Part shown: positions 10,517 through 52,135 of the stretch, piece by piece
Layout of the letters: each line of letters opens with the position of its first letter
Position numbering within the stretch: the first letter of the stretch is position 1
Assembly (NCBI RefSeq): GCF_004341505.2
Contig: NZ_SLYP02000001.1
Span: 2,628,501 to 2,692,500, forward strand
Direction: 5' to 3'
Source: Sphingomonas sp. JUb134
GTDB taxonomy: Bacteria; Pseudomonadota; Alphaproteobacteria; Sphingomonadales; Sphingomonadaceae
DNA length: 64,000 bases
Position numbers and translations under genes: made by a program
Notes under the pieces: generated by a model
Told to the model about the DNA's origin: nothing
Database searches by the model: none
Seen by the model: the letters and a program-made list of their open reading frames with translations, nothing else

Positions 10517-11155
10517 TTAGAACATGGTTTCCGGGATGATAATAACATCCCCCGGCGCCAGCCGCACGTTCGCGGAAGTGTCGCCGTCCTTCAGCAGGCT
10601 GGCGATGCGCAAACCATATTCCTGCTGCTTGCCGGTCGTCCGGTCATAGCGCACCAGCCGCGCGCGATTGCCGGCCGCGAACTCGTTCACGCCGCCAACC
10701 GCGATCATCGCGTCGAGCAGCGTCATGTTGGCGCGATACGGCAGCGATGCCGGCTTTTCGGTGGCACCGACGACGCGCACCTGCTGGCTGTAGGTGCCGG
10801 AGAAATTCTCCACGATCACCGACACCAGCGGGTCCTTGATATACTCGCCGAGCGCGAGCTTCATGTCCTGGGCGAGCATCGCCGGCGTCTTGCCAACGGC
10901 GGGCATGTCGCTGATCAGCGGCGTGGTGATGCGGCCATCGGGGCGGACCTGCACCTTTGCCGACAGCTCGGGGTTGCGCCACACGAAGACGTTGAGCTGG
11001 TCGAGCGGGCCGATGACGTAATCCTCGCCCGGCGTCTCCTGCGCGGTGACGAAGGGTGCGGCCGGCAGTTCGGGGCGGGTCGCGGCGCATCCGCCCAGCA
11101 GCATCGCTGCCGTGGCCATGATGCCGGCCGCCGCCGGGAAGCTGTGCACGCGCAT
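10517..11155 (-). CDS. Polysaccharide export lipoprotein (Wza-type), XrtA-associated
   Basis: A 212-residue protein with a lipobox MLLGGC (lipidated Cys23). A Poly_export domain follows (EDYVIGPLDQLNVFVWRNPEL, split here at residue 45 onward) and then a SLBB region (VRVVGATEKPASLPYRANM). It is the periplasmic/outer-membrane exit component for the polymer. It is the first gene of the minus-strand operon that continues to the left edge of the window. The ~190 bases upstream (11156-11348) separate it from the decarboxylase gene and must contain the operon promoter; a TATAGG box lies at about 11210-11216, but I found no well-spaced -35. Confidence 0.92.
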   Translation of the reverse strand: MRVHSFPAAAGIMATAAMLLGGCAATRPELPAAPFVTAQETPGEDYVIGPLDQLNVFVWRNPELSAKVQVRPDGRITTPLISDMPAVGKTPAMLAQDMKLALGEYIKDPLVSVIVENFSGTYSQQVRVVGATEKPASLPYRANMTLLDAMIAVGGVNEFAAGNRARLVRYDRTTGKQQEYGLRIASLLKDGDTSANVRLAPGDVIIIPETMF

Positions 11156-11348
11156 ATCGAACCCCTCGCTCCATCACCCGCCGCCCAAAGGGCGCAGGAT
11201 CGTTGCCGCCCTATACCCGGCCTGGTAAAGATAGGGTTAGGTGGAAACCGGCGGCTCCCCAGGGTCGGCGTGCCATATCGGGAAGTTTCCCGATGCCCGC
11301 CTGCCGCACTCCAGCCCCCCAGGCCGTTCGGAAGCGGCTCAACGGCCC

Positions 11349-12587
11349 TCAGGTCCGGCGGTTCCCCTGGACCACCAACTCGCGCGCCGCCGGGTGGCCG
11401 AGAAAGGCGGCGGGGCTGGCAGTCGCGCCATAGGCCCCGGCCAGGAAAATCGCGATGAGATCGCCTACGGCGACTTCGGGCAGAGCGACCTTGTCGGCGA
11501 GCCGGTCGAGCGGTGTACACAGGCAGCCCACGACGGAGGCGGTCTGGATCGCGGGCTCCGCCATGCGCCCGGCGGCGGCAAGCGGGTAGTTGCGGCGCAC
11601 GACCGTTCCGAAATTGCCGCTGGCGGCGAGCTGATGGTGCAGCCCGCCGTCGACGATCACGAACCGCTCGCCGCCGCTCTCCTTCACGTCGATGACGCGG
11701 GTGAGGTACACGCCCGCCTCCCCCACCAGCCATCGCCCGAGCTCGATCGCAAACGCGCTGTCGACCAACGTGGCGGGGCGCGCCGCCAGCGCTTCGCCGA
11801 GCGCGGCGCCGACCGCCGCAACGTCGACGGGCAGGTCGCCTGCGAAATAAGGGATACCGAAGCCGCCGCCCAGGTTGACCAGCGGAGGCGCCGCTCCGGC
11901 TGCGTCCGCCAGCCGGGCAGCGAGCGCCACGGTGGCGGCCTGGGTCTCGATGATCGCGGCGGTGTCGAGCGCCTGGGAGCCGGCAAAGATGTGGAAGCCG
12001 CGCCACGCTGCCCCGGAGGCAAGGATCGTGCGGACCAGCGCCGGCACGCGCGCGGCATCGACCCCGAAGGGAGACGCGCGCCCGCCCATCCGCATGCCCG
12101 AGCCGCGCAGCTCGAAGTCCGGGTTCACCCGCACGGCCAGCCGCGGGGGGATGCCGAGCCGCTCGCCGATGGCGATCGCGCGGGCGACCTCTCCCTCGGA
12201 CTCCGCGTTCAGGGTGGCGCCGACCTCAATCGCCGCCGCCAGTTCGTCGTCGCGCTTGCCGGGGCCGGCGAAGCTGATCTCGGCGGCAGGCTTCACCGCC
12301 AGCGCCTGCGCCAGTTCCCCGCCCGAGGCGACGTCGAGCCCGTCGACTAGCGGCGCGATGCCGGCGAGCAGTTCGGGATGCGGGTTCGCCTTGATCGCAT
12401 AGTGGATGCCGACCTCCGCCGGCAGCGCGCTTCGCAGCACGTCCACCCGCTCCGCGACAAAACCCAGGTCGTAGACGAACAGCGGCGTGTCACCCGCGCG
12501 GGCGACCAGCGCCTCGGCATCCTCGCCGCCGATCGCCAGCCGCTGCTGCCCGGCAAAGGCGGGCGGGATCGGACCGATCGGCTTCAT
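11349..12587 (-). CDS. PLP-dependent decarboxylase, exosortase A system-associated
   Basis: A 412-residue fold-type III (alanine racemase-like) decarboxylase of the diaminopimelate/ornithine decarboxylase family. The PLP lysine is Lys66 in YAIKANPHPE, and the glycine-rich phosphate site GGGFGIPYF and the C-terminal substrate motif VVGCLCTPLD are present. It probably decarboxylates an amino-acid-like group loaded on the neighbouring acyl carrier protein, giving an amine or acyl substituent for the exopolysaccharide; this is inferred from the XrtA-locus gene set. The ATG overlaps the ligase stop (ATGA). Confidence 0.9.
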   Translation of the reverse strand: MKPIGPIPPAFAGQQRLAIGGEDAEALVARAGDTPLFVYDLGFVAERVDVLRSALPAEVGIHYAIKANPHPELLAGIAPLVDGLDVASGGELAQALAVKPAAEISFAGPGKRDDELAAAIEVGATLNAESEGEVARAIAIGERLGIPPRLAVRVNPDFELRGSGMRMGGRASPFGVDAARVPALVRTILASGAAWRGFHIFAGSQALDTAAIIETQAATVALAARLADAAGAAPPLVNLGGGFGIPYFAGDLPVDVAAVGAALGEALAARPATLVDSAFAIELGRWLVGEAGVYLTRVIDVKESGGERFVIVDGGLHHQLAASGNFGTVVRRNYPLAAAGRMAEPAIQTASVVGCLCTPLDRLADKVALPEVAVGDLIAIFLAGAYGATASPAAFLGHPAARELVVQGNRRT

Positions 12588-14131
12588 TGCGGCGTCTCCT
12601 GGAACTCGGCGAGCACGGCGGCGCGCAAGCCGCTGCGGTCGAGCTTGCCATTGGCGTTGCGCGGCAGCGCATCGCGCCAGCGATAGTAGGCGGGCTGCTG
12701 AAAGGCGGGAAGCTCGCGGCGCAGGCGCTCGCGCAACGCTGCCTCTGCCGCCTCGACCGGGCCGTTGGCACGGGCCACGACCAGCACTGCCTGGCCGAGC
12801 CGCGGATCGGGCACGCCGAACGCCGCCGCTTCCGCCGCTTCCCCGCCCGCAAGCACCGCCTCCTCCACCTCGGTCGGGCTGATGCGGTTGCCGGCGCTCT
12901 TGATCATCTCGTCGTCGCGGCCGACGAAGCGGAGCAGGCCGTCCTGCCCCTCCACGACCGTGTCGCCGGACCAGACGGCGGTGCCGCCGTGCTCGGCGAA
13001 GGCAGGCGCGGGACGGAAGCGCTGCGCGGTCCGCTCCGCATCCTGCCAATAGCCCTGCGCCACCAGCGGGCCGGCGTGGACGAGTTCGCCCGGCTCACCC
13101 GGCTGCGCGCGGCTGCCGTCGGGGCGCACCACCAGCACCTCGGCAAAGGGAATGGCGCGGCCGATCGCGTCCGGTGCGCCGTCCACCAGCGCGGGATCGA
13201 GGAAGGTCGAGCGGAATGCCTCGGTCAGGCCGTACATCGGGTAGAGATCGGCCTGCGGAAACCGCTGGCGGAGCGCACGCACCATCGAAGTCGTCAGCGC
13301 GCCGCCCGAATTGGTGAGCCGGCGCAGCTGTGCCGCCGTTTCGGCCGGCCAGTTCGCCTCCAGCAGCTGCGTCCACAGCGGCGGCACGCCGGCCAGGCTG
13401 GTGATCCCCTCGCGCTCCACCGCCTTCACCACGTCTCGCGCGGTCAGATAGTCGAGCGGCACCACGCAACCGCCCGCCGCCCAGGTGGAGAAGAGCTGGT
13501 TCTGGCCATAGTCAAAGCTGAGCGGCAGCACCCCCAGTACGCGGTCGGCGGGCACGAGGCGGAGATAATGGGCGACCGAGATCGCGCCGAGCCACAGGTT
13601 CGCGTGGCTGAGCATCACGCCCTTGGGCCGCCCGGTGGAGCCGGAGGTATAGAGGATCGCGGCAAGCGCGTCCGTGTCGCCGCGCGACGGCGGTAACGCC
13701 CCCGCCGCATGGGCGAGCGCCTCCTCCTCCAGTGCGACCTCGCAACCCTCCGGGACGTCGCCCGCTTCCAGCAGCCCGGCACGCGTCGGCTGGGTCAACA
13801 GCAGCGCGGCGCCGCTGTCGGCGAGGATATGCGCCACCTGCGCCCGCTTGAGCACCGGGTTGATCGGCACGTGCACCAGCCCGGCGCGGACGGCGGCGAG
13901 CGGCATCAGGCAGGCCGCGCGCGACTTGGGCAACCAGCTGGCGACGCGACTGCCAGGCGCCAGCCCCCGCACGTGGAGCCAGTGCGCGAGGCGCCCCACC
14001 GCCGCCTCCAGCTCGGCGTAGGAGAGCGTGCCGTCCTTGCCGGCCAATGCAGGCGCCGTCGGGCTTCCCCGCAACGGCAGCGTGTCCAGGGGTTGGGGCA
14101 CAGGATCGAGTGGAACCATCGGCGAGCGCAT
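12584..14131 (-). CDS. Acyl-CoA/AMP-forming ligase, exosortase A system-associated
   Basis: An ANL-superfamily adenylating enzyme of about 515 residues. The AMP-binding P-loop is ILYTSGSTGRPKGV, the adenine motif is YPMYGLTEAF, and the C-terminal hinge and Lys motif are FVGRDDEMIKSAGNRISPTE and NANGKLDRS. It likely activates a carboxylic acid and loads it onto the acyl carrier protein encoded divergently at 14233. Three in-frame starts exist (14155, 14131, 14119) and none has a convincing Shine-Dalgarno; 14131 is a compromise. It is the first gene of a two-gene operon with the decarboxylase. Confidence 0.9.
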   Translation of the reverse strand: MRSPMVPLDPVPQPLDTLPLRGSPTAPALAGKDGTLSYAELEAAVGRLAHWLHVRGLAPGSRVASWLPKSRAACLMPLAAVRAGLVHVPINPVLKRAQVAHILADSGAALLLTQPTRAGLLEAGDVPEGCEVALEEEALAHAAGALPPSRGDTDALAAILYTSGSTGRPKGVMLSHANLWLGAISVAHYLRLVPADRVLGVLPLSFDYGQNQLFSTWAAGGCVVPLDYLTARDVVKAVEREGITSLAGVPPLWTQLLEANWPAETAAQLRRLTNSGGALTTSMVRALRQRFPQADLYPMYGLTEAFRSTFLDPALVDGAPDAIGRAIPFAEVLVVRPDGSRAQPGEPGELVHAGPLVAQGYWQDAERTAQRFRPAPAFAEHGGTAVWSGDTVVEGQDGLLRFVGRDDEMIKSAGNRISPTEVEEAVLAGGEAAEAAAFGVPDPRLGQAVLVVARANGPVEAAEAALRERLRRELPAFQQPAYYRWRDALPRNANGKLDRSGLRAAVLAEFQETPQ

Positions 14132-14218
14132 AGCCGATGCCATCGCCAAAGCCACGCCCGCATCACGCCCGCAGCTTGGCTTTCGGGCCTGCGACGACTA
14201 ACAGCGGGTCCAATCAGC

Positions 14219-14224
14219 AAGAGG
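14219..14224 (+). promoter_or_regulatory. Shine-Dalgarno deciding a TTG start
   Basis: The bases AAGAGG sit eight bases before a TTG at 14233. No ATG or GTG in this frame lies in the usual place downstream, and the first conserved residues of the acyl carrier protein follow the TTG directly, so the site fixes TTG as the start. Confidence 0.7.
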
Positions 14225-14232
14225 AAAATCCC

Positions 14233-14505
14233 TTGGTTCCGGAACAGGCGAACGAGATCGAGAACACCGTGCGGGCCGTGCTGCGGGACGTGCTGGGCCT
14301 GTCGGCCGAGCGGGTGGCGGCGTTCGACGCGGAAACGCCGCTGTTCGGCGCGCTGCCGGAGCTCGACTCCATAGCGGTCGCAGGCGTGCTCACCGAGATC
14401 GAGGACCGGCTGGGGATCCTGATCGAGGACGACGACATCGACGGCGATACGCTGGCGACCTTCGGCTCGCTGACCCGCTTCGCCATGGGCAAGGCGGTGC
14501 ATTGA
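14233..14505 (+). CDS. Acyl carrier protein, exosortase A locus
   Basis: A 90-residue acidic acyl carrier protein. Ser46 in PELDSIAVAG is the expected 4'-phosphopantetheine attachment site, set in the usual DS(I/L) motif with a helical bundle around it (ENTVRAVLRDVLG, EIEDRLGILIEDDDID). The start is TTG at 14233. It opens the plus-strand operon with the two hydrolases and is divergent from the ligase/decarboxylase operon, which together form a small acyl-activation module. Its stop overlaps the next gene's TTG start. Confidence 0.9.
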   Translation: MVPEQANEIENTVRAVLRDVLGLSAERVAAFDAETPLFGALPELDSIAVAGVLTEIEDRLGILIEDDDIDGDTLATFGSLTRFAMGKAVH

Positions 14506-22485: not shown

Positions 22486-23247
22486 GTGGATCCTTCGTTC
22501 AGCGTAGAAGCGTTGCTGCCGTTCATTGCCGTGGGATTCGGGGCCCAGATCGTCGACGGGGCGCTCGGCATGGCATTCGGCGTCATCTGCAACACGCTGC
22601 TGGTGGCGGTGATCGGGCTGCCGCCGGCGCGCGCGTCCGCCAACGTTCACGTGGTCGAGACCTTCACCACCGCGGTTTCCGGCATCAGCCACGTCCTGTC
22701 GGGCAATGTGGACAAGAAGCTGTTCCTGCGGCTGCTGATCCCCGGCGTCGTCGGTGGCGTGAGCGGCGCCTTTCTGCTGACCAACCTGGATGGCGATGCG
22801 GTGAAGCCGTTCGTGCTCGGCTATCTGGTGGCGGTCGGCATCTACCTGCTGATCCGCGGCATCCTGTTCCCGCCCAAGCACGCCAAGCCCAAGGTCGTCG
22901 AGCCGCTGGGCCTCGTCGGCGGGTTCCTGGATGCGGCGGGCGGCGGCGGCTGGGGCCCGATCGTCACCTCCAACCTGCTCGTCCAGGGCGTTGAGCCGCG
23001 CAAGGTGGTGGGCACCGTCAACAGCGTCGAGTTCTTCCTGACGCTCACCGTCTCGGCGACCTTCATCTACCATCTGGGCATCCGCGACTTCGCCACGGCG
23101 ACGCTCGGGCTGCTGATCGGCGGCATCGTCGCGGCGCCGTTCGGCGCGGTGATGGCCAAGCGCATCCCGACCAAGACGATGCTGATCCTGGTCGGCACGG
23201 TGCTGACGATCACCAGCACCTATGGCTTCATCCGCGCGCTCGGCTGA
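22486..23247 (+). CDS. TauE/SafE (TSUP) family membrane exporter
   Basis: A 253-residue polytopic protein with about eight hydrophobic helices arranged as two repeats (VGFGAQIVDGALGMAFG early, GGFLDAAGGGGWGPIV later), the TSUP signature. Family members export sulfite, sulfoacetate or related organic sulfur anions. The start is GTG at 22486, five bases after CAGGGAAG. The leader resembles that of the TonB receptor upstream, which hints at shared control. Confidence 0.92.
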   Translation: MDPSFSVEALLPFIAVGFGAQIVDGALGMAFGVICNTLLVAVIGLPPARASANVHVVETFTTAVSGISHVLSGNVDKKLFLRLLIPGVVGGVSGAFLLTNLDGDAVKPFVLGYLVAVGIYLLIRGILFPPKHAKPKVVEPLGLVGGFLDAAGGGGWGPIVTSNLLVQGVEPRKVVGTVNSVEFFLTLTVSATFIYHLGIRDFATATLGLLIGGIVAAPFGAVMAKRIPTKTMLILVGTVLTITSTYGFIRALG

Positions 23248-23312
23248 GGCGGCGGAGCGCCCCTGGCGCCGGCGAAGCTGACAAGCGCAGGCCCAGCGGC
23301 TAAGGCGGGACC

Positions 23313-24035
23313 ATGAAAGCGGTCATCCTGAGCGCGGGCTATGGCTCCCGGCTGCTGCCCCTCACCATGGAAATCCCCAAGTGCCTGGTGAAGGTGCAGG
23401 GGCGCGAGATCCTGCTGCAACAGCTGACCGCGCTGGCCGAAGCGGGGATCGAGGAAGCCGCGGTCGTCGTCGGATATCGCCACCGGCAGGTGCGCCAGTT
23501 CGTCGCCGAACGCGCCCTGCCGCTGCGCGTCTCGACCGTGTTCAATCCGTTCTGGTCGGTGAGCAACAGCATCGGCAGCGTCTGGGTCGCCCGCGCGCAC
23601 CTGCTCGAGCCCTTCTGCCTCCTGAACGGCGACACGGTGTTCGAGCAGGCGGTGCTGAGCGAAGCCCTGCGCCAGCCGCCGCCCGGCATCGGCCTGGTCG
23701 TGGAGCCGATCCGGGGCCCCGTGCTGGACGACATGCGGGTCGCCGTGGCGAACGGCCGCGTGACTGCGGTTGCCAAGGACCTGGACAGCGCGCGCACCAC
23801 CCACCGGTCGCTGGGCGTCATCACCAGCACCGGGGATGACGGCGCCTATGCCCGCGCGCTGGAAACGGTGATCGAGCGCGACAGCGGCCATGCCGCCTAT
23901 CATCACGCGATCGTCGCCGAACTGGCGGCGACCGTCGGCGTCACCGCCATCGAGCATCACGCCGGCAAGTGGCAGGAGATCGACCGGCCCGAGGACATCG
24001 ACACCTGGGGCACGGCGCAGGGGACGCCTGCCTGA
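23313..24035 (+). CDS. Nucleotidyltransferase (LicC/CTP:phosphoalcohol-type)
   Basis: A 240-residue GT-A-fold nucleotidyltransferase. The NTP-binding signature is LSAGYGSRLLPLT with the follow-on Lys in IPKCLVKV (residues 21-28), and LLNGDTVF carries the metal-binding Asp. The overall length and the EIDRPEDID C-terminal motif resemble cytidylyltransferases that activate phosphocholine or polyol phosphates. It opens a run of overlapping plus-strand genes (its stop shares one base with the next start), so it probably makes the CDP-activated headgroup used by the downstream genes. The exact substrate is unknown. Confidence 0.82.
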   Translation: MKAVILSAGYGSRLLPLTMEIPKCLVKVQGREILLQQLTALAEAGIEEAAVVVGYRHRQVRQFVAERALPLRVSTVFNPFWSVSNSIGSVWVARAHLLEPFCLLNGDTVFEQAVLSEALRQPPPGIGLVVEPIRGPVLDDMRVAVANGRVTAVAKDLDSARTTHRSLGVITSTGDDGAYARALETVIERDSGHAAYHHAIVAELAATVGVTAIEHHAGKWQEIDRPEDIDTWGTAQGTPA

Positions 24036-25162
24036 TGCGCGACCGGGTCGCCTTCCTGTTCCTGGGCGAAACACTGCTGATCCCGCACCTCTTCCCGATC
24101 GTGGAAGCGCTCTCGGACCTCGCGCCGGAGCTGCCGCAGGACCTGTGGGTCAGCACGTCGATGCACGAGGCGCTGATCGGCGGCTGGCTGGCCGAGCGGC
24201 CGCACGCGCCGATCCGCATCCGCCGCGCGCCCGGCTTTCGCACGGTTGCGGTCGACGCGGGTACCAACCCGCCGCTCCCGCCCAAGCTGCCGATGCTCGC
24301 GCGGCTCGCACCCCGGCTGGCCCGGGTGCCCGTCGCCGTCTGCGCCGAGCAGACGAGCCTGTGGCTCCCGCGGGTGCTCCCGATCCTGCCGACGCGCTTC
24401 GTGAAGACCTCGCACGGGGTAGGCTCGATGAGCGCGCGCGACGATCGCCGCCGCCGCGCGGCCTGGCGAACGCTGGTGCCGAGCGAGCGCGAGCGCCAGA
24501 CCTATCTGGTGCGAGGCATGCCGCCGGAGCGGATCGTCGCCTCCGGCTATGTGAAGGCGGGATTCCGCCAGCGCAGCTATGCCACGCCGGACTTCGCAGA
24601 GGACCGCCCGGTCCTGCTCTACAATCCGCACTGGCAGCAGCACCGCTCCTCCTGGTGGCGCTGGGGCGAGCAGGTCGTCCGGCGGGTGCTGGCCGAGGGC
24701 AAGTGGAACCTGATCTTCGCGCCCCACCAGCGGCTCGTCGAACGCGCACCCGAGGTTCGCGCGTTGTGCGAGGAACTGAAGGGACGCGGCGACACGCATT
24801 GCGACTACCAGAGCTTCGCCGCGGTGGACGGCAGCTACACCGCCGCCGCCGACGTCTACCTGGGCGACACGTCCAGCCAGGTGCTGGAATTTCTGGTGCG
24901 GCCGCGTCCGTGCGTGTTCCTGAACGCGGGCGGCGCACACTGGCAGGACGATCCCTCCTACGCGATGTGGGTCGCCGGCGAAGTGGTGGACAGCCTCGAC
25001 GGCGTCCTGCCCGCCCTGTCGCGCGCCGGGACCGAGCACCCGCGCTTTGCGGATGCGCAGGCAGCGCTCGCAAGCGATTCGCTGGGTGACACGAGCGGCG
25101 CCGCACCGACACGTGCCGCATCCGAAATCCTCCGCGTATTGGCGGAGCGCCACTCGGGATGA
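24035..25162 (+). CDS. CDP-glycerol glycerophosphotransferase-like (TagB/TagF fold)
   Basis: A 375-residue GT-B protein. Motifs shared with teichoic-acid-type glycerophosphotransferases are TSHGVGSM (about residues 128-135), LLYNPHWQ, IFAPHQRL and the donor-site run YTAAADVYLGDTSSQVLEF. These enzymes transfer a polyol phosphate from a CDP-polyol to an acceptor. That fits the cytidylyltransferase gene it overlaps and the CDP-alcohol transferase that follows. In a Gram-negative this would build a phospho-polyol cap or chain on a lipid or glycan; the acceptor is unknown. The next gene starts 46 bases downstream. Confidence 0.78.
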   Translation: MRDRVAFLFLGETLLIPHLFPIVEALSDLAPELPQDLWVSTSMHEALIGGWLAERPHAPIRIRRAPGFRTVAVDAGTNPPLPPKLPMLARLAPRLARVPVAVCAEQTSLWLPRVLPILPTRFVKTSHGVGSMSARDDRRRRAAWRTLVPSERERQTYLVRGMPPERIVASGYVKAGFRQRSYATPDFAEDRPVLLYNPHWQQHRSSWWRWGEQVVRRVLAEGKWNLIFAPHQRLVERAPEVRALCEELKGRGDTHCDYQSFAAVDGSYTAAADVYLGDTSSQVLEFLVRPRPCVFLNAGGAHWQDDPSYAMWVAGEVVDSLDGVLPALSRAGTEHPRFADAQAALASDSLGDTSGAAPTRAASEILRVLAERHSG

Positions 25163-25208
25163 CGGCTTTCCTCTCGCAATCGGCGCACGATCGGGTATCG
25201 GCCCGAAT

Positions 25209-26339
25209 ATGACACCCAAGGATGCCCAGCCCCGGCCGGCAGTCACGCCCGTCGGCAGCAACCCGACGCCGCTGTGGGGAATGACCAACGAAGAGCGTGT
25301 GCGGCGGATCGCCGCCTCGCGCGATCTGGCCTTCACCGACCAGCCGACCGGCCCGACGATCCTGGTCAACCTGCGGTTCGCGTCCGATCCCGTCTGGATC
25401 GCGCACCTGACCGGCAGGCCGGGAACGCTGGTGAGCCGCAACGGCGTGCCCGCGCTCGCGCACGTGACGAACGCCGCGCAGCGTGAGGCGGTGCTCGCCG
25501 CGATGCAGGCGCAGGCGCCCGTCTCGCCCGAAGCGGGCATGGACGAAATCCGGGCCGAGGCCGAGGAAGGCATCTTCAACGAGGCGCTGCGCAAGCGCGA
25601 GCAGCCGTTCGTCGAACTGCTGGTGCCCGAGGCAGTGCCCGGCATCGAGCGGGCGAGCTACACCGGCGCCTACAAGGGGGTGACCGACCTCCTCACCAAA
25701 TATCTCTGGCCGGAATGGGCCTTTGCCCTCACCCGCATCGCCGCGCGGCTGGGGATCACCCCCAACCAGGTGACGGCTGCCGGCAGCGTGCTGTGCATCA
25801 TCGCGACGATCGCCTTCTGGCACGGATGGTTCTGGACCGGCCTTGCCACCGGGCTCGTCTTCATGGTGTTCGACACCGTGGACGGAAAGCTCGCGCGCTG
25901 CACCATCACGTCCTCCAAGCTCGGCAACGCCTGGGACCATGGCGTCGACCTGGTCCACCCGCCCTTCTGGTGGTGGGCCTGGGCCGCCGGCTGTGCCGAT
26001 TACGGCCGGCCGCTCACCGACCAGATGTTCTGGCTGGTGATCGGCACGATGCTGTTCGGCTATGTCGCGCAGCGGCTGATCGAGGGCGCGTTCATCGTCC
26101 GCTTCGGCATGCACATCCATGTGTGGGAGCGGTTCGACAGCTGGTTCCGGCTCATCACCGCGCGGCGGAACCCGAACATGGTGATCCTGTTCTTCCTGCT
26201 GCTGGTGCAGCGTCCCGACTGGGGCATCATCGGGGTCGCGGCCTGGACCGCGATCTCGCTGGTGGTGCACCTCGTCCGGCTGTTCCAGGCGATGTGGGCG
26301 GCCCGTCACGGCGAAAGGATCACCAGCTGGCTCGCGTGA
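25209..26339 (+). CDS. CDP-alcohol phosphatidyltransferase with N-terminal soluble domain
   Basis: A 376-residue membrane enzyme. The CDP-OH-P signature D-x2-DG-x2-AR-x8-G-x3-D-x3-D is intact in DTVDGKLAR...GNAWDHGVD (about residues 222-247), followed by several transmembrane helices. It displaces CMP from a CDP-alcohol or CDP-lipid to form a phosphodiester. The first ~150 residues form a soluble domain (ILVNLRFASDPVWIAHL, HVTNAAQREAVLAAM) reminiscent of the nucleotidyltransferase-like half of inositol-phosphate enzymes of this family, which is an uncertain resemblance. It overlaps the flippase start by four bases (GTGA). Confidence 0.85.
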   Translation: MTPKDAQPRPAVTPVGSNPTPLWGMTNEERVRRIAASRDLAFTDQPTGPTILVNLRFASDPVWIAHLTGRPGTLVSRNGVPALAHVTNAAQREAVLAAMQAQAPVSPEAGMDEIRAEAEEGIFNEALRKREQPFVELLVPEAVPGIERASYTGAYKGVTDLLTKYLWPEWAFALTRIAARLGITPNQVTAAGSVLCIIATIAFWHGWFWTGLATGLVFMVFDTVDGKLARCTITSSKLGNAWDHGVDLVHPPFWWWAWAAGCADYGRPLTDQMFWLVIGTMLFGYVAQRLIEGAFIVRFGMHIHVWERFDSWFRLITARRNPNMVILFFLLLVQRPDWGIIGVAAWTAISLVVHLVRLFQAMWAARHGERITSWLA

Positions 26340-27679
26340 ACCCGTTCGCCGCGCGCACCGGCACCCCGCGCAAGGGGCTCGGCAGCGTCGCGCACAATCT
26401 GGGATGGCTGCTCGCCGGGCGCGGCGTCACCGCCGTGCTGTCGCTCTTCTACCTGGCGATCGTCACGCGCACGCTGGGCGTGACCGACTTCGGGCGCTTC
26501 TCCATCATCGTCGGCGCCTCGCAAGTGCTGGTCGCGCTGGTCGGCTTTCAGACCTGGCAGATCATCGTCCGCTACGGCACCGCCCACCGTTCGGCGGGCG
26601 ACCTCGATCGGCTGGGGCGGCTGTTCCGGGCCTGCACCGCCCTCGACGCGACGAGCGCGGTGGTGGGCGTGGGCGTCGCCGCCACGATCCTGAGCCTGTG
26701 GGGCGAGATGCTGGGCATCGGCCCGACGCTGTGGCGGGCGACCTTCATCTTCACGATCATCCAGCTGCTGTCGCTGCGCTCGACGCCGCTCGGCATCCTG
26801 CGGCTCAACGACAATTTCTCGCTCGCCGCACTGGCGGACAGCGCGACGCCGGTGGTGCGCCTGGTCGGCGCGGGGCTGGTCGCGCTGATCCACCCGACGC
26901 TCCAGGGCTTCCTGGTGGCGTGGATGGCGGCCGAGCTGCTGACGGCCACTGCCTATTGGCTCATGGTCGCGCGGACCGGCAACCTGCGGCTGATGCGCCG
27001 CCACGGCCCCGGCCTGCGCGCGGTGGTGACCGACAACCCCGGCATCGTCCAGTTCGCGGTCAGCACCAACGCCAATGCGACCTTCACCCTGTCCAGCAAG
27101 CAGTTCCCGCTGCTGCTGGTGGGCGGCGTCGCCGGCACCACCGCGGCGGGCGAGTTCCGGCTGGCGGTGCAGCTGGCACAGGCGATGACGAAGCTGTCGC
27201 AGCTCCTCGCCCGCGCCGCCTTCCCGGAGATCGTGCGCTCGATCGATGCGGGCGGCCTGCGCAAGGTGGGCAAGTTCCTGGTGCGCTCGGTCTCGGTCGC
27301 GACGCTGGTCGCCGCGCTGGTGTTCGGGCTTCTGCTGCTGGGGGGCCAGCATGTGCTGGCGCTGGTCGGCGGATCGGAGTTCACCAACGCCTACTCCAGC
27401 CTGTTGTGGCTGACGGCGGCCGGCTGCATCGACCTGTGCACGGTGGGCTTCGAGCCCGTGCTGATGGCGGCAAATCGGGCCGGCAGCGCCTTCTTCGTCC
27501 GGCTGGCTGCCACGGGCACCATGTTCGCGGCGGCATTCCTGCTCTCGCCCAGCATGGGCGCGAACGGCATCGCGGCCGGGGTGCTGATCGCCTCGGTCGT
27601 CACGGCCGTGCTGCTTGCGCTGATGCTGGGCCTCGCGATCCGGCGGGACCGGCTGCGGACCGAAGGAGCGGTGGCGTAG
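26336..27679 (+). CDS. Oligosaccharide/lipid flippase (MOP superfamily, Wzx-like)
   Basis: A 447-residue polytopic protein with about 12 hydrophobic helices and the N-terminal VAHNLGWLLAGRGVTAVLSL-type opening of Wzx/RfbX flippases. It would translocate the lipid-linked product of the cluster across the inner membrane. The start is GTG at 26336, overlapping the CDP-alcohol transferase stop (GTGA), so it belongs to the same operon. Confidence 0.85.
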   Translation: MNPFAARTGTPRKGLGSVAHNLGWLLAGRGVTAVLSLFYLAIVTRTLGVTDFGRFSIIVGASQVLVALVGFQTWQIIVRYGTAHRSAGDLDRLGRLFRACTALDATSAVVGVGVAATILSLWGEMLGIGPTLWRATFIFTIIQLLSLRSTPLGILRLNDNFSLAALADSATPVVRLVGAGLVALIHPTLQGFLVAWMAAELLTATAYWLMVARTGNLRLMRRHGPGLRAVVTDNPGIVQFAVSTNANATFTLSSKQFPLLLVGGVAGTTAAGEFRLAVQLAQAMTKLSQLLARAAFPEIVRSIDAGGLRKVGKFLVRSVSVATLVAALVFGLLLLGGQHVLALVGGSEFTNAYSSLLWLTAAGCIDLCTVGFEPVLMAANRAGSAFFVRLAATGTMFAAAFLLSPSMGANGIAAGVLIASVVTAVLLALMLGLAIRRDRLRTEGAVA

Positions 27680-27749
27680 CCCCCGACCATCTCCCGTTCA
27701 TCCGGGCAGGCGCATAGCGAACGCCCAGTTGTTGCAACGAGAGTCTTCG

Positions 27750-28223
27750 ATGTCGCGTACCGCTCTTGCCGCGCTTGCCCTGCTCGCGGGCGCCACTGCC
27801 CTCTCCGCTCCCGCCCAGGCTGCGCCGGCCTGCGTCGGCACGCCGGGGAACGGCAAGGTGAAGCTGGAGGTTGCCGCCACCAGCTTGCGCAGCGCCGATG
27901 GCGAGGTCGCCTTCACCGTCTATCCGGACGACAGCAGCCGCTTCCTGAAAGGCGGCGCCAAGCTCGCGCGTGCGCGGGTCAAGGTGACGGCGCCGACCAC
28001 CCGCGCCTGCTTCTGGCTGGCGCCCGGCCATTATGCGCTCGCCACCTATCACGACGAGAACGGCGACCATAAGTTCAACCGCACGACGCTTGCGCCCAAG
28101 GAAGGATACGGCTTCTCCAACGATGCGCCGACCACCTTCAGCCTGCCCGCGTTCAAGGCGACGCGCTTTCCGCTGCCCGCCAGCGGCGGCAGCATCGCCA
28201 TTCGCACGCGCTATGGCCGATAA
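27750..28223 (+). CDS. DUF2141 secreted protein
   Basis: A 157-residue protein with signal peptide (ALAALALLAGATALSAPAQAA). The DUF2141 pattern follows: VAFTVYPDDSSRFLKGG, then LAPGHYALATYHDENGDHKFN and PKEGYGFSNDAP. The HDENGD segment resembles a calcium-binding loop. The function of the family is unknown. Two cysteines (VGTPGNG upstream Cys and ACFWLAPG) could form a disulfide. It sits 70 bases after the flippase gene and may be part of the same transcription unit. Confidence 0.85.
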   Translation: MSRTALAALALLAGATALSAPAQAAPACVGTPGNGKVKLEVAATSLRSADGEVAFTVYPDDSSRFLKGGAKLARARVKVTAPTTRACFWLAPGHYALATYHDENGDHKFNRTTLAPKEGYGFSNDAPTTFSLPAFKATRFPLPASGGSIAIRTRYGR

Positions 28224-28411
28224 GTCGTAAAAGCCGGGCGCTTCCCCGGCGAAAGCGTGCGATAGGGGTTGCCGAAGGCGGCGGTCGCCACAAAACTGCC
28301 ACGATATGGGCGCGGACGGGCCAATCGTGCGGTGCATGGGCCCGCCTCCCGTTCAAGCATCGTACCCCGGGGGCGCGTTTGAAGAAGATTACCTCGGAAC
28401 CGGCAGAGCAG

Positions 28412-29398
28412 ATGGCGTCCCCTACTCCCCCTGGAACGATGGTCCCGGACCGTGGCGCACGCCGCGCCGGCCATCCGCGCACCGGGATCATCAGCAACAG
28501 CCGAAGCCATCGCAACCGCACCCGCGGTGCCGAGGCGGCGGTGGTGCCGGCCGATACGCCCAACCTCCTGTACCGCGGCCCCCGGACCCACCCGGCGCTG
28601 GCTCAGGCGCTGCGCGAATTCCGGGACGCCGGCATCGAGCTGCTGGTAGTCGACGGCGGCGACGGCACCGTGCGGGACGTGCTGACCTGCGCGCAGGAGA
28701 TTTTCGGCGACGCCCTGCCCCGGCTGGCCGTCGTCCCCTCGGGCAAGACCAACGCGCTCGCGCTCGACCTCGGCATCCCGAACGACTGGACGGTGCAGGA
28801 CGCGCTGGAGGCAGGCGTCCATGGCGGAGCCCGGGCCCGTGCGTCCGTGGAGATCCTGCGCGGCGATGCGAGCAAGCCGGAGCTGTGCGGCTTCCTGTTC
28901 GGGGCCGGTGCGTTCGTGCGCGCGACCGAACTGGCGCAGCGCACGCACAAGGCGGGTGCCTTCAACAGCTTTGCGGTCGGCATCTCGCTGTTCTGGGGCG
29001 TCGCCCAGACGATGTTCGGCGGGCACGCCAACGAATGGCGCGCGGGCGAGCCGATGCGGCTGCAGCTGGACGGGGGCACACCGGTCGACAAGACCTTCTA
29101 CATCCTGTTCAGCTCGACGCTGGAGCGGCTGCCGCTGCGGCTCAAGCCTTTCGGTCACGAGCGCGCCGGGTTGAAGATGCTGGCGGTCGATGCGCCCCCC
29201 ACTCGCCTCTCGCGCGCGGTGCCGGCCCTGCTGCGCGGCTCCGAAGCCGCGTGGCTGGAGCAAGCCGGCTACCGCCGCCATGACGTCCATTCCTTCACGG
29301 TCACGCTGGAGGGCGGCTTCATCCTCGATGGCGAACTCTACGACGGCGGCACCATCACCGTGCGCCAGGGCCGACCACTCCAGTTCGTGACGCCGTGA
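28412..29398 (+). CDS. DAG/sphingosine-kinase-like lipid kinase
   Basis: A ~328-residue protein with a diacylglycerol-kinase catalytic domain. The nucleotide loop is VVDGGDGTVRDVL, and VVPSGKTNALALDLG follows as in YegS/DGK enzymes. The C-terminal half is the usual beta-sandwich, ending in ILDGELYDGG. It would phosphorylate a lipid such as diacylglycerol or ceramide. In-frame starts exist at TTG 28379, ATG 28412 and ATG 28439; I chose 28412 without strong ribosome-site support. The next start shares one base with its stop (TGATG), so the two products are probably made together. Confidence 0.85.
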   Translation: MASPTPPGTMVPDRGARRAGHPRTGIISNSRSHRNRTRGAEAAVVPADTPNLLYRGPRTHPALAQALREFRDAGIELLVVDGGDGTVRDVLTCAQEIFGDALPRLAVVPSGKTNALALDLGIPNDWTVQDALEAGVHGGARARASVEILRGDASKPELCGFLFGAGAFVRATELAQRTHKAGAFNSFAVGISLFWGVAQTMFGGHANEWRAGEPMRLQLDGGTPVDKTFYILFSSTLERLPLRLKPFGHERAGLKMLAVDAPPTRLSRAVPALLRGSEAAWLEQAGYRRHDVHSFTVTLEGGFILDGELYDGGTITVRQGRPLQFVTP

Positions 29399-30318
29399 TG
29401 CGCCCGCTGCGTCGTGCCATTGCCGACATGCTGGCGGCCGAGGTCCGGCCGGAGATCGTCGAGGCAGCCGCGGTCGTCGCCGGCCGGCTCGGCGGGTCGG
29501 CGGTGCTCTTCTACGGCTCGGTGCTGCGGACCGGCGACCTCGACGGGCTGCTCGACTTCTATGTCCTGACCGAAGGGCCGCCGGCGCCCGGCGTCCGCGG
29601 CATGGTGTCGCAGCGGATCTGGCCCGACATCAGCTTCGAGGAGGTTCGCGTCGGCGGCCGCATGCTGCAGGCCAAGGTCGCGACCATGCCGCTCGCCGTC
29701 TTTGCGGAGGCCGCGAGCGGGGAGCTGGCCGACACGACCATCTGGACCCGCTTCGTGCAGCCGAGCGCCCTGCTGTGGATCGCCGGCGCCGCGCAGGCGG
29801 AGGCGGAGGCGGTCGTGGACGCGATCGCGGCGGCTGCGATCACTGCCGCCCGCTTCGCCGCCGTGCTCGGTCCTGCCCATGGCGCGCCGGCCGCCTATTG
29901 GAAGGCGCTGTTCCGGGAGACCTATCGCGCGGAATTGCGGGTCGAGCAGCCGGGGCGCGAGGACCAGATCCTCGCCTATGACCCGCAACGCTATGCCGAG
30001 CTGCTCCTCCTCGCCTGGGAAGCAGCCGGGATCGAGGTGCGCCGCACGCCGGACGGGGTGTCGCCGATCCTGGACGCCGAGACACGGGCGCAGTTGCTGC
30101 GCCGCTGGCGGTCGCGGCGGCGGCTGGGCAAGCCGCTCAACGCGCTGCGGCTGGTGAAGGCCGCCTTCCTGCTCGATGGCGCCGCGCGCTACGGCGCGTG
30201 GAAGGTCGAGCGGCATACCGGCGTTCCCGTCAAGCTGACGCCCTGGGCCGAACGCCATCCGCTGCTCGCCGCACCCGGCGTGCTGTGGAAGGTCTGGCGC
30301 GCGCGGACGCGGGCATGA
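29398..30318 (+). CDS. Tam41-like nucleotidyltransferase (candidate CDP-lipid synthase)
   Basis: A 306-residue soluble protein. The region AVLFYGSVLRTGDLDGLLDFYVL has the Gly-Ser and acidic pattern of nucleotidyltransferase folds (YGS...DF). Downstream, GGRMLQAKVATM, IWTRFVQPS and WKALFRETYRAELRVEQ follow the same order as blocks I recall from mitochondrial Tam41 CDP-diacylglycerol synthase. Such an enzyme would turn a phospholipid acid into a CDP-lipid, which suits its one-base overlap with the lipid kinase upstream and its four-base overlap with the MobA-like gene downstream. The assignment is by pattern memory and needs a profile search. Confidence 0.55.
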   Translation: MRPLRRAIADMLAAEVRPEIVEAAAVVAGRLGGSAVLFYGSVLRTGDLDGLLDFYVLTEGPPAPGVRGMVSQRIWPDISFEEVRVGGRMLQAKVATMPLAVFAEAASGELADTTIWTRFVQPSALLWIAGAAQAEAEAVVDAIAAAAITAARFAAVLGPAHGAPAAYWKALFRETYRAELRVEQPGREDQILAYDPQRYAELLLLAWEAAGIEVRRTPDGVSPILDAETRAQLLRRWRSRRRLGKPLNALRLVKAAFLLDGAARYGAWKVERHTGVPVKLTPWAERHPLLAAPGVLWKVWRARTRA

Positions 30319-31061
30319 GCGCGTTCCACGCCCTGGTGCTCGCCGGCTCGCGCGGCGGTGCCGATCCGGTCGCGGACTATGCTGGGGTGCCTGCCAAGGC
30401 GCTGATCGAGGTCGGCGGCGTGACGATGCTCGCCCGGGTCGTCCGGTCGCTCCGCGCAGCCGGCGCCACCCGCATCGGCGTCTCCGTCTCGGATCCGGCA
30501 GTCGCCGCCCATGCAGAAACGCTCGGTGTCGAGGTGCTGACCGCCGAGGCCGGCCCCAGCCGGAGCACCCGCAGCGGGCTCGCAACCCTGGGCACGCCGC
30601 TGCTGGTCACCACCGCCGACCATGCGCTGCTCGAACCGGAGTGGATCACCGCGTTCCTGGCGGCGACGCCGGCGGGCGCGGACGTTACCGCGCTGCTCGC
30701 CCGCCGCGACGTGATCGAGGCAGCAGTGCCGGAAACGCAGCGCACCTATCTGCGCTTCGCCGATGGCAGCTGGTCGGGGTGCAACCTCTTTTACCTGGCG
30801 ACGCCCAAGGCGAACGCGGCGCTCGACCTGTGGTCGCAGGTGGAGGCGGACCGCAAGCGGCCGTGGCGGATCGTGCGTCGGCTCGGCACCGGAACGCTGC
30901 TGCGCTATCTGGTCGGGCGGCTCACGCTCGATCAGGCACTCATGCGGCTCGGAGCCGCCGCAGGCATCTCGGCGCGCGCGATCGCAAGCCCGTTCGGCCT
31001 GGCGGCGGTGGATGTCGACAAGCCTGCCGACCTCGACCTCGTCCGCCGCCTGGTCGGCTAG
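30315..31061 (+). CDS. MobA-like NTP transferase
   Basis: A 248-residue GT-A nucleotidyltransferase. ALVLAGSRGGADPVADYAG and KALIEVGGVTMLARVV give the NTP-binding loop and Lys, and LLVTTADHALL gives the metal-binding Asp. It is distinct from the LicC-like enzyme at 23313, so the cluster has two headgroup or sugar activators. The ATG at 30315 overlaps the upstream stop (ATGA). Its end overlaps the convergent glycosyltransferase gene by four bases. Confidence 0.82.
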   Translation: MSAFHALVLAGSRGGADPVADYAGVPAKALIEVGGVTMLARVVRSLRAAGATRIGVSVSDPAVAAHAETLGVEVLTAEAGPSRSTRSGLATLGTPLLVTTADHALLEPEWITAFLAATPAGADVTALLARRDVIEAAVPETQRTYLRFADGSWSGCNLFYLATPKANAALDLWSQVEADRKRPWRIVRRLGTGTLLRYLVGRLTLDQALMRLGAAAGISARAIASPFGLAAVDVDKPADLDLVRRLVG

Positions 31062-32095
31062 CGCCGGAGGCCCAGCAGCACCGGCGCACTGGCGGTCAGC
31101 CACCCCCGCGCCGGACCGCGGATCAGTCCCCGCGCCAGCGGCGAGCGCAGGTAGGTCCGCACCGCCGCGGCCCGGCCCAGGGTCGGCATCGCGACGCGGC
31201 AGGCGAGCAGCCAGAACCAGCCCGTCGCCAGCGCCATCCCCTCGGGCGGGACGTAGCGGCTCTCCGCATTGCACGCGCGCAGGGTCTGGAGCCAGTCGGC
31301 GGCCCACCGCAGAAAGTCCGGCGGCGCCTCGACGCCCTTCAGCTTCGTCTTGCCCAGCATCGTGTGGCGGCGAAGATCCTCGGCGTCGAACCGCATGCCG
31401 AGCTCCGTAAGCGGCCCGGCGTAGAGCCCGCCCTTGCACTCGCGGATGCGGTCCTGCCGCTGGCACACGGTCTGGCCAGGATGCACCCGCCGGTCGACCA
31501 GCACCTGCGGCAGGTTCGCGAGCCTATAGGTCCGCGAGAGGCGGACGAAGAGCTCCAGGTCCTCGCACACGTCGAAGCTCGGCTGATAGGGATTTGCCTT
31601 GAGCACCTCGGCCCGGCCCATCACCGAGGATTGCTGAAAGGCCGACCGGAACAGCAGCCATGCCGCGATGTCGCCGGATTCGAGCGGCGGGACGCGCACG
31701 CCGCGCTTGCGCCGGCCGTCCTTGTCGATCTTGCCCGCGCAGCCGCCGACGAGGGCGACGTCCGGGTTGCGGGCAAGGAAATCGACCTGTGCACCCAGCC
31801 GCTCCGGCCGGGCGATGTCGTCGCTGTCGAGCCAGGCGATCAGCCGGCCCCGCGCGGCGTCCAGGCCGGTGTTGCGCGCGTCCGGGATGCCGAGGTTCCG
31901 GGCGTGCCGCACCACCCGGATGCGCGGATCGCCGAAGCCCTCGACAACCGCGACCGAGTCATCGGTGGAGCCGTCGTCCACCACCACCAGCTCGAAGTCG
32001 CCGAACCGCTGGCCCAGGATGCTGCGGATCGCATCCCCCACCAGATGCGCCCGGTTGTGGACCGGGATGAGGACGGAGACGGTCGGAGTTGCCAT
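31058..32095 (-). CDS. Family 2 glycosyltransferase
   Basis: A 345-residue GT2 enzyme with the nucleotide-sugar domain VSVLIPVHNRAHLVGDAIRS, the acidic VVVDDGSTDDS, and DXD-type LIAWLDSDD (about residue 90-98). A putative ED motif is VCEDLELFVRL. It transfers a sugar from an NDP-sugar. It is on the opposite strand to the preceding lipid cluster and overlaps it tail to tail, so it may serve the same product but is transcribed separately. Confidence 0.9.
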   Translation of the reverse strand: MATPTVSVLIPVHNRAHLVGDAIRSILGQRFGDFELVVVDDGSTDDSVAVVEGFGDPRIRVVRHARNLGIPDARNTGLDAARGRLIAWLDSDDIARPERLGAQVDFLARNPDVALVGGCAGKIDKDGRRKRGVRVPPLESGDIAAWLLFRSAFQQSSVMGRAEVLKANPYQPSFDVCEDLELFVRLSRTYRLANLPQVLVDRRVHPGQTVCQRQDRIRECKGGLYAGPLTELGMRFDAEDLRRHTMLGKTKLKGVEAPPDFLRWAADWLQTLRACNAESRYVPPEGMALATGWFWLLACRVAMPTLGRAAAVRTYLRSPLARGLIRGPARGWLTASAPVLLGLRR

Positions 32096-32172
32096 GCCGC
32101 GGGGATAGCCGCCTCCCCCGCCAAAGCCACGCGAATTTGCGACACCCGGCCCAGGTGGGTATCGCGGGTCGC

Positions 32173-33999
32173 ATGGAACAACAGGCTCTCCTCTTCGCGC
32201 TGATCGGCGTGCTCGGCATCGGCGCGCAATGGGTCGCCTGGCGAACGGGCTGGCCCGCCATCGCGCTGATGCTGGTGGCGGGGATCTTCGCGGGTCCCGT
32301 CACCGGATTGATCGACCCGCATGCCGCCTTCGGCCCGCTGCTCGAACCCGCCATCTCGATCGCGGTCGCCGTGATCCTGTTCGAGGGCGGCCTCAGCCTC
32401 AACTTCCGCGAGCTGCGCAAGACCGAGGGCGCCGTCACCCGCCTGGCGCTGATCGGCATCCCGGTCGGCTGGGCGCTGGGTGCACTCGCCTGCTATTATG
32501 TCGCCGGGCTGGTATGGCCGGTCGCGATCCTGTTCGCCGGCATCATGGTGGTGACCGGCCCCACCGTGGTCCTGCCGCTGCTGCGCCAGAGCAACGTCGC
32601 GCCGCGGCCCCGCGCGATCCTGAAGTGGGAGGCGATCGTCAACGATCCCTTCGGCGCGCTCTGTGCGGTCATCACCTATGAATATCTCCGTCGATCGGAG
32701 GCGGGCGCGTCGCTGGGCGGCGTCATCGTGTCGCTGCTTGCGGCCGCCGTGCTCGCGGGCCTGATCGGCTATGCGGTGGCGCGCGCGATCGCCTGGGCGT
32801 TCCCGCGCGGGCATGTGCCGGAGTATCTGAAGGCCCCCGTCCTGCTGGTCGCAGTGATCGGCACCTTCGTGCTGTCGAACCTGATCCAGCAGGAAACCGG
32901 GCTGCTCGCGGTGACGGTGATGGGCATCGCGCTTGCGAACATGAAGCTCGACTCGCTGCGCGACGTCCACCCGTTCAAGGAGAACATCACCGTCCTCCTG
33001 ATCTCCGGCGTGTTCGTGCTGCTCTCCGCCCAACTCGACCTGGAGGTGCTGCGCCGCTTCGAATGGCGCTTCGCCGGCTTCCTGGTCGCGCTGCTGCTGC
33101 TGGTGCGGCCGGCGACCGTGCTGCTGAGCCTCGCGTTCAGCCGGGTGCCGTGGAACGAGCGGCTGCTGATCGCCTGGATCGCGCCGCGCGGCGTCGTCGC
33201 GGTCGCGGTGTCGGGGCTGTTCGCGCTCCGGCTCGACCGGCTCGGCTACAGCGACGGCGACATTCTGGTGACCCTGTCCTTTGCGGTCGTGGTCACCACG
33301 ATCATCGCCCATGGCTTCAGCATCCGCACGGTCGCCCGCTGGCTGAAGGTCACCGGCGCGAGCGAGCGCGGCCTGCTGATCGTGGGGAGCACCGACTGGA
33401 GCCTGGCGCTTGCTGAGCATCTGCGCTCGCTCGATGTGCCGGTGCTGGTGAGCGACAGCAGCTGGCAGCGGCTCTCCCCCGCCCGCCAGCGCGGCATCCC
33501 GACCTATCACGGCGAGATCCTGGCCGAGGCGACCGAGGAGCAGCTGGACCTCAGCCAGTTCCAGGTGCTGGCCGCAACCTCCGAGAACGAAGCCTATAAT
33601 GCGCTGGTGTGCAGCGAGTTCGCGCCGCAGATCGGGCGCGACGCGGTGTACCAGCTGGGCGACGCGAGCGGCGATCCGCGCGCGCTGCCGGAGGCGCTGC
33701 GCGGCCGGGCGCTGTTCACCTCCGGCCTCGGCGTCGAGGAAATCACCGAGCGCGAGCGTGCCGGCTGGTCCTTCCGCAAGACCCGCATCAGCGAGCAGTT
33801 CGACTTTGCCGACGCCAAGGCGGTGCTGCCGGACGAGGCCGACATGCTGCTGCTGTTGCGCAAGAACGGGACGCTGCGCTTCTTCACGCATGCCACCCGC
33901 CCGACGCCGCAGCCCGGCGACGTGATCGTCTCCTACGCCCCGCCCCGCGTGCGCGAGCCGGAGACCCGAAACGAGAACCTGATTGGGGAGGAACGATGA
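32173..33999 (+). CDS. Cation:proton antiporter with TrkA-N-like C-terminus (CPA1/KefC type)
   Basis: A 608-residue protein with about 12 transmembrane helices in the first 400 residues, including AILFAGIMVVTGPTVVLPLL and WEAIVNDPFGAL of the NhaP/CPA1 ion-binding core. A cytosolic nucleotide-binding Rossmann-like domain (RGLLIVGSTDWSLALAEHL) and a TrkA-C-like end follow. It exchanges Na+ or K+ for protons. The ATG at 32173 is chosen; upstream frame is shadow. Its stop overlaps the lipoprotein start (ATGA). Confidence 0.92.
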   Translation: MEQQALLFALIGVLGIGAQWVAWRTGWPAIALMLVAGIFAGPVTGLIDPHAAFGPLLEPAISIAVAVILFEGGLSLNFRELRKTEGAVTRLALIGIPVGWALGALACYYVAGLVWPVAILFAGIMVVTGPTVVLPLLRQSNVAPRPRAILKWEAIVNDPFGALCAVITYEYLRRSEAGASLGGVIVSLLAAAVLAGLIGYAVARAIAWAFPRGHVPEYLKAPVLLVAVIGTFVLSNLIQQETGLLAVTVMGIALANMKLDSLRDVHPFKENITVLLISGVFVLLSAQLDLEVLRRFEWRFAGFLVALLLLVRPATVLLSLAFSRVPWNERLLIAWIAPRGVVAVAVSGLFALRLDRLGYSDGDILVTLSFAVVVTTIIAHGFSIRTVARWLKVTGASERGLLIVGSTDWSLALAEHLRSLDVPVLVSDSSWQRLSPARQRGIPTYHGEILAEATEEQLDLSQFQVLAATSENEAYNALVCSEFAPQIGRDAVYQLGDASGDPRALPEALRGRALFTSGLGVEEITERERAGWSFRKTRISEQFDFADAKAVLPDEADMLLLLRKNGTLRFFTHATRPTPQPGDVIVSYAPPRVREPETRNENLIGEER

Positions 34000-52053: not shown

Positions 52054-52135
52054 ACAGGACCGCCGGCGCAGTGCCGTCGGGGGCGGAGTAAAATCCGGCC
52101 AGTTGGTAAGCTGCTCCCTTTGCGGAGCGGCGGGG

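Follow-up and report, generated by a model that had tools for sequence, protein, structure and literature searches.

A gene cluster of Sphingomonas sp. JUb134, located at positions 23313-31061 of a 64,000-nucleotide stretch of contig NZ_SLYP02000001.1 (the whole of which is referred to here as the window), is a soil-bacterium version of the recently described gene set for ceramide phospho-headgroups. On balance, we favor the view that its eight genes, all on the + strand, synthesize an anionic phosphosphingolipid and export it, following a modified form of the Caulobacter ceramide-phosphoglycerate (CPG) route, in which a TagF-like enzyme would extend the headgroup (headgroup identity and length are both predicted). 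The added transferase, of the teichoic-acid type, and a flippase point to possible lengthening and export of the headgroup. The cluster and the gene converging on it comprise the following (CDP, cytidine diphosphate):

23313..24035, + strand: CpgD-like cytidylyltransferase of a divergent clade (Pfam NTP_transferase, E 2.9e-12; 240 aa)
24035..25162, + strand: TagF/TagB-like phosphotransferase, GT-B fold (375 aa; assigned from relatives and predicted fold)
25209..26339, + strand: CpgA-like CDP-alcohol phosphotransferase (CDP-OH_P_transf, PF01066, E 2e-7; 376 aa)
26336..27679, + strand: Wzx-like flippase (Polysacc_synt, PF01943, E 7.7e-8; 447 aa)
about 27750..28223, + strand: DUF2141 protein (PF09912, E 2.5e-22; start uncertain)
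28379..29398, + strand: CpgB-like lipid kinase of the ceramide kinase type (DAGK_cat, E 2.8e-12)
29395..30318, + strand: CpgC-like cytidylyltransferase with a Tam41 fold (307 aa; assigned from relatives and predicted fold)
30315..31061, + strand: CofC/MobA-like nucleotidyltransferase, CC_1153 type (NTP_transf_3, E 1.1e-15)
31058..32095, - strand: convergent family 2 glycosyltransferase (GT2; Pfam Glycos_transf_2)

An earlier note on this DNA, made from the letters alone, had named all but one of these genes, the convergent GT2 included, and Pfam matches bear it out, with relatives and predicted folds doing so for the TagF-like and Tam41-like proteins. Its gene list was nevertheless incomplete, as the DUF2141 gene between the flippase and the kinase had been missed. 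Its description of the genes as overlapping holds for four junctions, which overlap by 1-4 bases (nucleotidyltransferase/TagF, CDP-alcohol/Wzx, kinase/Tam41-like, and Tam41-like/CofC-like), but not for the remaining three, which are gaps of 46, 70, and 155 bases. The start of the kinase gene is uncertain and may lie further downstream (e.g., 28439). A search for sigma-70-like promoters over 23100-32300 returned none (0.3 expected).

The functions of CC_1168-CC_1152 have been described in Caulobacter, including CC_1161, which has a CDP-diacylglycerol (CDP-DAG) synthase domain and for which a nucleoside diphosphate (NDP)-activated ceramide was proposed (PMC11324152, Olea-Ozuna et al.). Ceramide kinase activity is established for CpgB (PMC10331486) and the synthesis of CDP-glycerate for CpgD (PMC12275187); in the literature consulted, these are the only two Caulobacter headgroup enzymes with shown activity (PMC12275187). 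The anionic ceramide lipids support growth without lipopolysaccharide and are required for polymyxin sensitivity (PMC12275187). By family and gene order, the window kinase, Tam41-like, CDP-alcohol, and CofC-like genes are the apparent counterparts of cpgB, cpgC, cpgA, and CC_1153, respectively, and all four types are found in the JUb134 genome, as typed via relatives that show the published Caulobacter gene order. The set had been presented previously as one that was not recognized. We reject the idea of an unrecognized system: the core is essentially the Caulobacter set (CpgA-D and CC_1153) for CPG and for ceramide with two phosphoglycerates (CPG2), and Sphingomonas wittichii orthologs, spread over six regions, had already been reported (PMC11324152).

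Sphingomonads are known for sphingolipid-based envelopes, and the surroundings of related genes indicate that the lipid is probably a ceramide, in agreement with the earlier suggestion of a sphingolipid. Neighborhoods of Tam41-like genes were compared in named-genome loci (the best 80 of 561 confirmed relatives, none of the 80 being from Caulobacter), where neighbors were counted as homology clusters with one or two representatives per named family checked against Pfam, and the function labels Spt, CerS, CerR, and AasR were taken from the published gene set. Across these loci, the most frequent neighbors were kinase homologs (62), LptF/LptG (61), Spt-type aminotransferases (57), acyl carrier protein (ACP, 55), and CerS-type GNAT proteins (51), followed by CerR-type epimerases (38), DUF2141 (36), AMP-binding proteins of the AasR type (33), metallophosphoesterases (31), CpgA-like (26) and CofC-like (25) proteins, fatty acid hydroxylases (22), and CpgD-like proteins (15). 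The order in one locus (L153), phosphoesterase-CpgA-CpgB-CpgC-Spt-ACP-CerR-AasR, is that published for CC_1158 to CC_1165 (PMC11324152). The comparison with the Caulobacter genes that the earlier note had called for gave agreement in families and in the L153 gene order, and differences in the TagF-like gene, DUF2141, and the divergent CpgD. JUb134 itself carries its Spt, ACP, CerR, LptF/G, and CerS homologs as a group outside the window, at C1:1.244-1.252 Mb.

The kinase contains GGDG and lacks the eukaryotic CxxxCxxC, matching the features given for CpgB (a DAGK domain with GGDG and no CxxxCxxC; PMC10331486), and it is the only one of four DAGK_cat loci in the genome that clearly resembles CpgB. 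A DUF2141 gene is a recurrent neighbor of the CpgB kinase in phosphosphingolipid clusters, being found on the same strand within 400 bp upstream in 28 of the 62 CpgB loci (among L057-L136). For the Tam41-like protein, neither Pfam (E 0.1) nor NCBIfam (over its cut-offs) gives a match; PF09139 misses it, matches 2/20 of its relatives (best E 9.8e-7), and as a genome probe gave no match in 14 controls or in JUb134. Its putative identity as a Tam41-type enzyme is based on relatives and on a predicted model (pLDDT 92.2) whose top solved folds are both Tam41 (6ig4, E 6.9e-8, TM 0.51; 6ig2, E 1.7e-7, TM 0.49), and the protein contains the conserved nucleotidyltransferase motif. The gene has one match in its own genome and is present in 91 of 119 sphingomonad-family genomes (JUb134 included) and in 21 of 190 genomes of the wider class. 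Similarity to the window protein divides the family into two groups, with 44 genomes (JUb134 included) at or above 262 bits and 47 at or below 158 bits. Tam41-like/CpgB-like pairs also occur in assemblies labeled Nitrospirales, Delta-type symbiont, Desulfosarcina, and Candidatus Kuenenia (L088, L096, L112, L116, and L132), which fall outside the groups named in the available excerpts of PMC11324152.

The CpgA-like protein, which has a single match in JUb134, carries the motif of CDP-alcohol phosphotransferases (D-G-x2-A-R-x8-G-x3-D-x3-D, seen by eye in the translation) and nests in a tree among CpgA-type proteins adjoining CpgB/CpgC. Its family, searched at a stricter threshold (1e-20), is present in 37/119 genomes, and Tam41-like genes were found in 35 of these 37 compared with 56 of the 82 others (p 0.002, uncorrected for kinship). 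One genome (G284) has CpgA alone of the three genes, as a weak match, and one of the same genus as JUb134 (G012) has none of Tam41-like, TagF-like, and CpgA-like. Surroundings of 8 kb were examined in 33 of the 36 other CpgA genomes (G258, G260, and G284, with partial or weak matches, were left out, and some stretches end at contig ends): CofC-like genes were found in 25, canonical CpgD-like genes in 20, Wzx-like genes in 12, and kinase and Tam41-like genes in 7. The wzx, CpgD, CpgA, CpgB, CpgC, and CofC types occurred together in 7/33 genomes. A second, well separated type of CDP-alcohol transferase shares sphingolipid clusters with CpgA (L057-L059, L061-L063, and L098). The CofC-like protein has as its top NCBIfam match F420 CofC (E 1.9e-7), below cut-off.

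The TagF-like protein likewise goes unmatched by Pfam at E 0.1 and by any NCBIfam model over its cut-off, and its identity appears to be that of a TagF-type enzyme on the strength of relatives and predicted fold. PF04464 matches 11 of 43 relatives (E 0.01); a VIA-align comparison of the predicted structure gives TagF as the top match by about 2 Z units and recovers the TagF GT-B fold; and the conserved His and GDxSSQ positions are present. Its closest relative among the matches listed is 94% identical (Sphingomonas desiccabilis). TagF-like genes are present in 50/119 family genomes, and Tam41-like genes in 49 of these 50 compared with 42 of the 69 others (Fisher p 5e-7, again uncorrected for kinship), which together with the CpgA result confirms the co-occurrence in related genomes that had been predicted. 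In the wider class, 4/190 genomes have a TagF-like gene, 3 of these being among the 21 with a Tam41-like gene. Loci viewed in 29 of the 49 other TagF-like genomes (flanks of about 1.5 kb) adjoined another cluster family in 15 cases. In L149, the stretch from CpgC to AasR within a full spt cluster contains wzx and tagF, and the two genes are similarly arranged within an spt cluster in L101. A tandem TagF-like pair was also observed in L210 of genome G239 (11151-14242), adjoining wzx, kinase, Tam41-like, and CofC-like genes; this genome has no CpgA match at 1e-20, and the pair may replace CpgA.

The cytidylyltransferase that opens the cluster is the best match of a canonical CpgD-type protein in JUb134 (125 bits; next 33), and it shares a clade with proteins of G217, G231, G255, and G299 (local support 1.0, midpoint-rooted), all four of which adjoin a TagF-like gene. 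The key CpgD residues include Arg16, Lys26, and Asp112 (PMC12275187), and their equivalents here (R13, K23, and D107) are invariant in a 15-sequence alignment. Within the D-N-L motif, the Asn is present in 20/20 canonical rows and replaced by Ser in 5/5 proteins of the window clade, and the Lys after an invariant Asp-Asp-Met is Arg or Leu in the same five (the table covers sequences with the search motif, which excludes 7). In the CpgD structure, Asn90 contacts ribose and glycerate (PMC13228409, preprint). We infer that the D-N-L Asn column is the putative equivalent of this Asn90; a CpgD profile search gave no protein named Caulobacter among the matches listed (120 of 2946 proteins). The window protein keeps the residues aligned to Asn110, Met147, Lys161, and Ser170. 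Canonical CpgD, searched across the whole genome in JUb134 and near CpgA elsewhere, was found within 8 kb of CpgA in 0/4 clade genomes (JUb134 not counted) compared with 20/29 others. The apparent Asn loss and this pattern fit a changed donor but are not a demonstration of one. G200 and G297, both with close TagF-like relatives, carry canonical CpgD near CpgA, and hence the TagF-like gene also occurs alongside the canonical form.

Taken from the presence, predicted fold, and neighborhood observed for each gene, the reactions predicted for this organism would run as follows. The CpgB-like kinase would phosphorylate ceramide supplied by the Spt/CerS/CerR-type genes elsewhere in the genome (the reaction is known for Caulobacter CpgB), and the Tam41-fold CpgC-like enzyme, judging by its fold, would convert ceramide-1-phosphate to CDP-ceramide. 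The CofC-like and divergent CpgD-like enzymes may use CTP or another nucleoside triphosphate to activate small phospho-acids or phospho-polyols, the CpgA-like transferase would form the headgroup phosphodiester, and the TagF-like enzyme, to judge from its fold, conserved residues, and neighborhood, could add more phospho-units from a CDP-donor. The Wzx-like protein would then flip the lipid, and LptF2/G2-type proteins would carry it outward. In outline this is the headgroup pathway sketched in the earlier note, whose reading of a lipid kinase, a Tam41-type cytidylyltransferase, and a CDP-alcohol transferase acting with a TagF-type enzyme and a flippase is supported. A more tentative extension, which we regard as possible but doubtful, is that ceramide serves in some sphingomonads as the base of a teichoic-acid-like chain, for which CpgB/CpgC would activate ceramide, the divergent CpgD would give a donor other than CDP-glycerate, the TagF-like enzyme would polymerize, and Wzx would flip the product. 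If true, this short anionic phospho-polymer would be the Gram-negative counterpart of lipoteichoic acid, with a sphingolipid as its anchor.

Several points weigh against the favored phosphosphingolipid pathway. The CpgC reaction is unproven in the literature consulted; among open-licence papers we found none on a bacterial CDP-ceramide cytidylyltransferase or on Tam41 with ceramide in Caulobacter, but PMC11324152 proposes an NDP-activated ceramide. The equivalence with Caulobacter rests on families and gene order rather than on direct sequence comparison, and the co-occurrence statistics are uncorrected for kinship. No AasR turned up in the 39 kb surrounding the spt genes of JUb134, the stretch searched for it, and a CC_1158-type phosphoesterase was not found in the window. 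The TagF-like protein has no PF04464 match, and Foldseek alone places sugar 2-epimerases and other GT-B enzymes ahead of TagF (rank 15). As a genome probe, PF04464 matched 3/14 controls (Caulobacter not among them) and was silent in JUb134; the profile is therefore blind to this divergent type. Only 6/33 genomes have the TagF-like gene within 8 kb of CpgA, and G206 has TagF-like and CpgA-like genes with no Tam41-like match. Finally, with the inferred Asn90 equivalent lost from the window cytidylyltransferase, the donor may not be CDP-glycerate.

Among other explanations, the cluster could encode a plain CPG2 pathway, in which CpgA adds the second of two phosphoglycerates to ceramide and the TagF-like enzyme has an accessory or redundant role, with no longer chain. 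The CpgA, CpgB, CpgC, CofC, and CpgD types are indeed all present, seven genomes keep these types and wzx with no TagF-like gene in the surrounding 8 kb, and both CPG and CPG2 have been predicted for S. wittichii (PMC11324152). We nonetheless consider this unlikely, given that the TagF-like gene is nearly confined to Tam41-positive family genomes (49/50) and adjoins other cluster families in about half of the loci viewed (15/29), and that the CpgD-like clade of the window differs at a putative substrate-contact column.

Alternatively, two unrelated operons may be juxtaposed, with the nucleotidyltransferase-TagF-CDP-alcohol-Wzx half producing a glycan of the teichoic-acid-like or capsule kind on a different carrier and the kinase-Tam41-CofC half a separate ceramide phospholipid. 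The 70-base and 155-base gaps, with the DUF2141 gene, do part the halves, and nucleotidyltransferases and Wzx proteins of these types are found in polysaccharide loci too. Yet the CDP-alcohol protein belongs to the CpgA group, members of which adjoin CpgB/CpgC, and the types from both halves share one locus in the 7/33 genomes described above, making this explanation improbable. We assign a very low probability to a glycerolipid route from DAG via phosphatidic acid and CDP-DAG to a phosphodiester lipid. Tam41 makes CDP-DAG, and the CDP-alcohol protein finds its best NCBIfam matches, each far below cut-off, among phosphatidylinositol-phosphate-type synthases, but relatives of the cluster adjoin Spt-, CerS-, and CerR-type genes, and the Spt/CerS neighbors disfavor this route; moreover, the kinase is of the CpgB type, the Caulobacter member of which is a ceramide kinase (PMC10331486).

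The convergent GT2, although present as the earlier note stated, was not the best match of any open reading frame in the 80 Tam41-like loci (E 1e-5); it is therefore not a conserved partner, looks like a bystander, and was rejected as part of the cluster. Downstream in the window are genes encoding a protein whose C-terminal domain is of the Mu-type transposase kind (52103-53623) and an acyltransferase-SGNH fusion of the surface polymer acylation type (58540-60597).

Four features are added here to the known core: association with TagF, a single-locus arrangement that includes Wzx, a divergent form of CpgD, and DUF2141 as a neighbor. In titles and abstract openings of the open-licence papers listed, we found no report pairing TagF-like genes with bacterial sphingolipids; we likewise did not find an earlier description of the TagF-like gene as a regular partner or of the TagF-adjacent divergent CpgD form seen in five genomes. 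The nearly complete one-locus sphingomonad set offers compact material for testing the CDP-ceramide step, and its TagF-like partner leads to the prediction that headgroups of more than two units occur in some phosphosphingolipids. The TagF/TarL wall teichoic acid polymerases and the TagF-like capsule polymerases (Cps3D) share with the window protein the GT-B fold (TagF being the best structural match) and the His and GDxSSQ positions, whereas the window protein lacks a Gram-positive teichoic context, adjoins sphingolipid genes, and has <15% identity to solved structures. The mitochondrial CDP-DAG synthase Tam41 shares the predicted fold and conserved nucleotidyltransferase motif of the Tam41-like protein, which differs in having no PF09139 match and in its presumed lipid substrate, ceramide-1-phosphate. 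IPCT/DIPPS, among the weak NCBIfam matches, also combines a LicC/IPCT-type cytidylyltransferase with a CDP-alcohol transferase, but the window matches are far under cut-off, the genes are separate, and the neighbors are of sphingolipid type. The Caulobacter crescentus CPG/CPG2 system (cpgABCD) shares the lipid kinase, CDP-DAG-synthase-like enzyme, CDP-alcohol transferase, and CofC-like and LicC-like nucleotidyltransferases, and is accompanied by spt, cerS, cerR, acpR, and second LptF/G genes (PMC11324152, PMC12275187). In contrast, the window cluster adds the TagF-like transferase and the DUF2141 gene, has a divergent CpgD, lies apart from the ceramide genes, and was not seen with the CC_1158-type phosphoesterase in the window.

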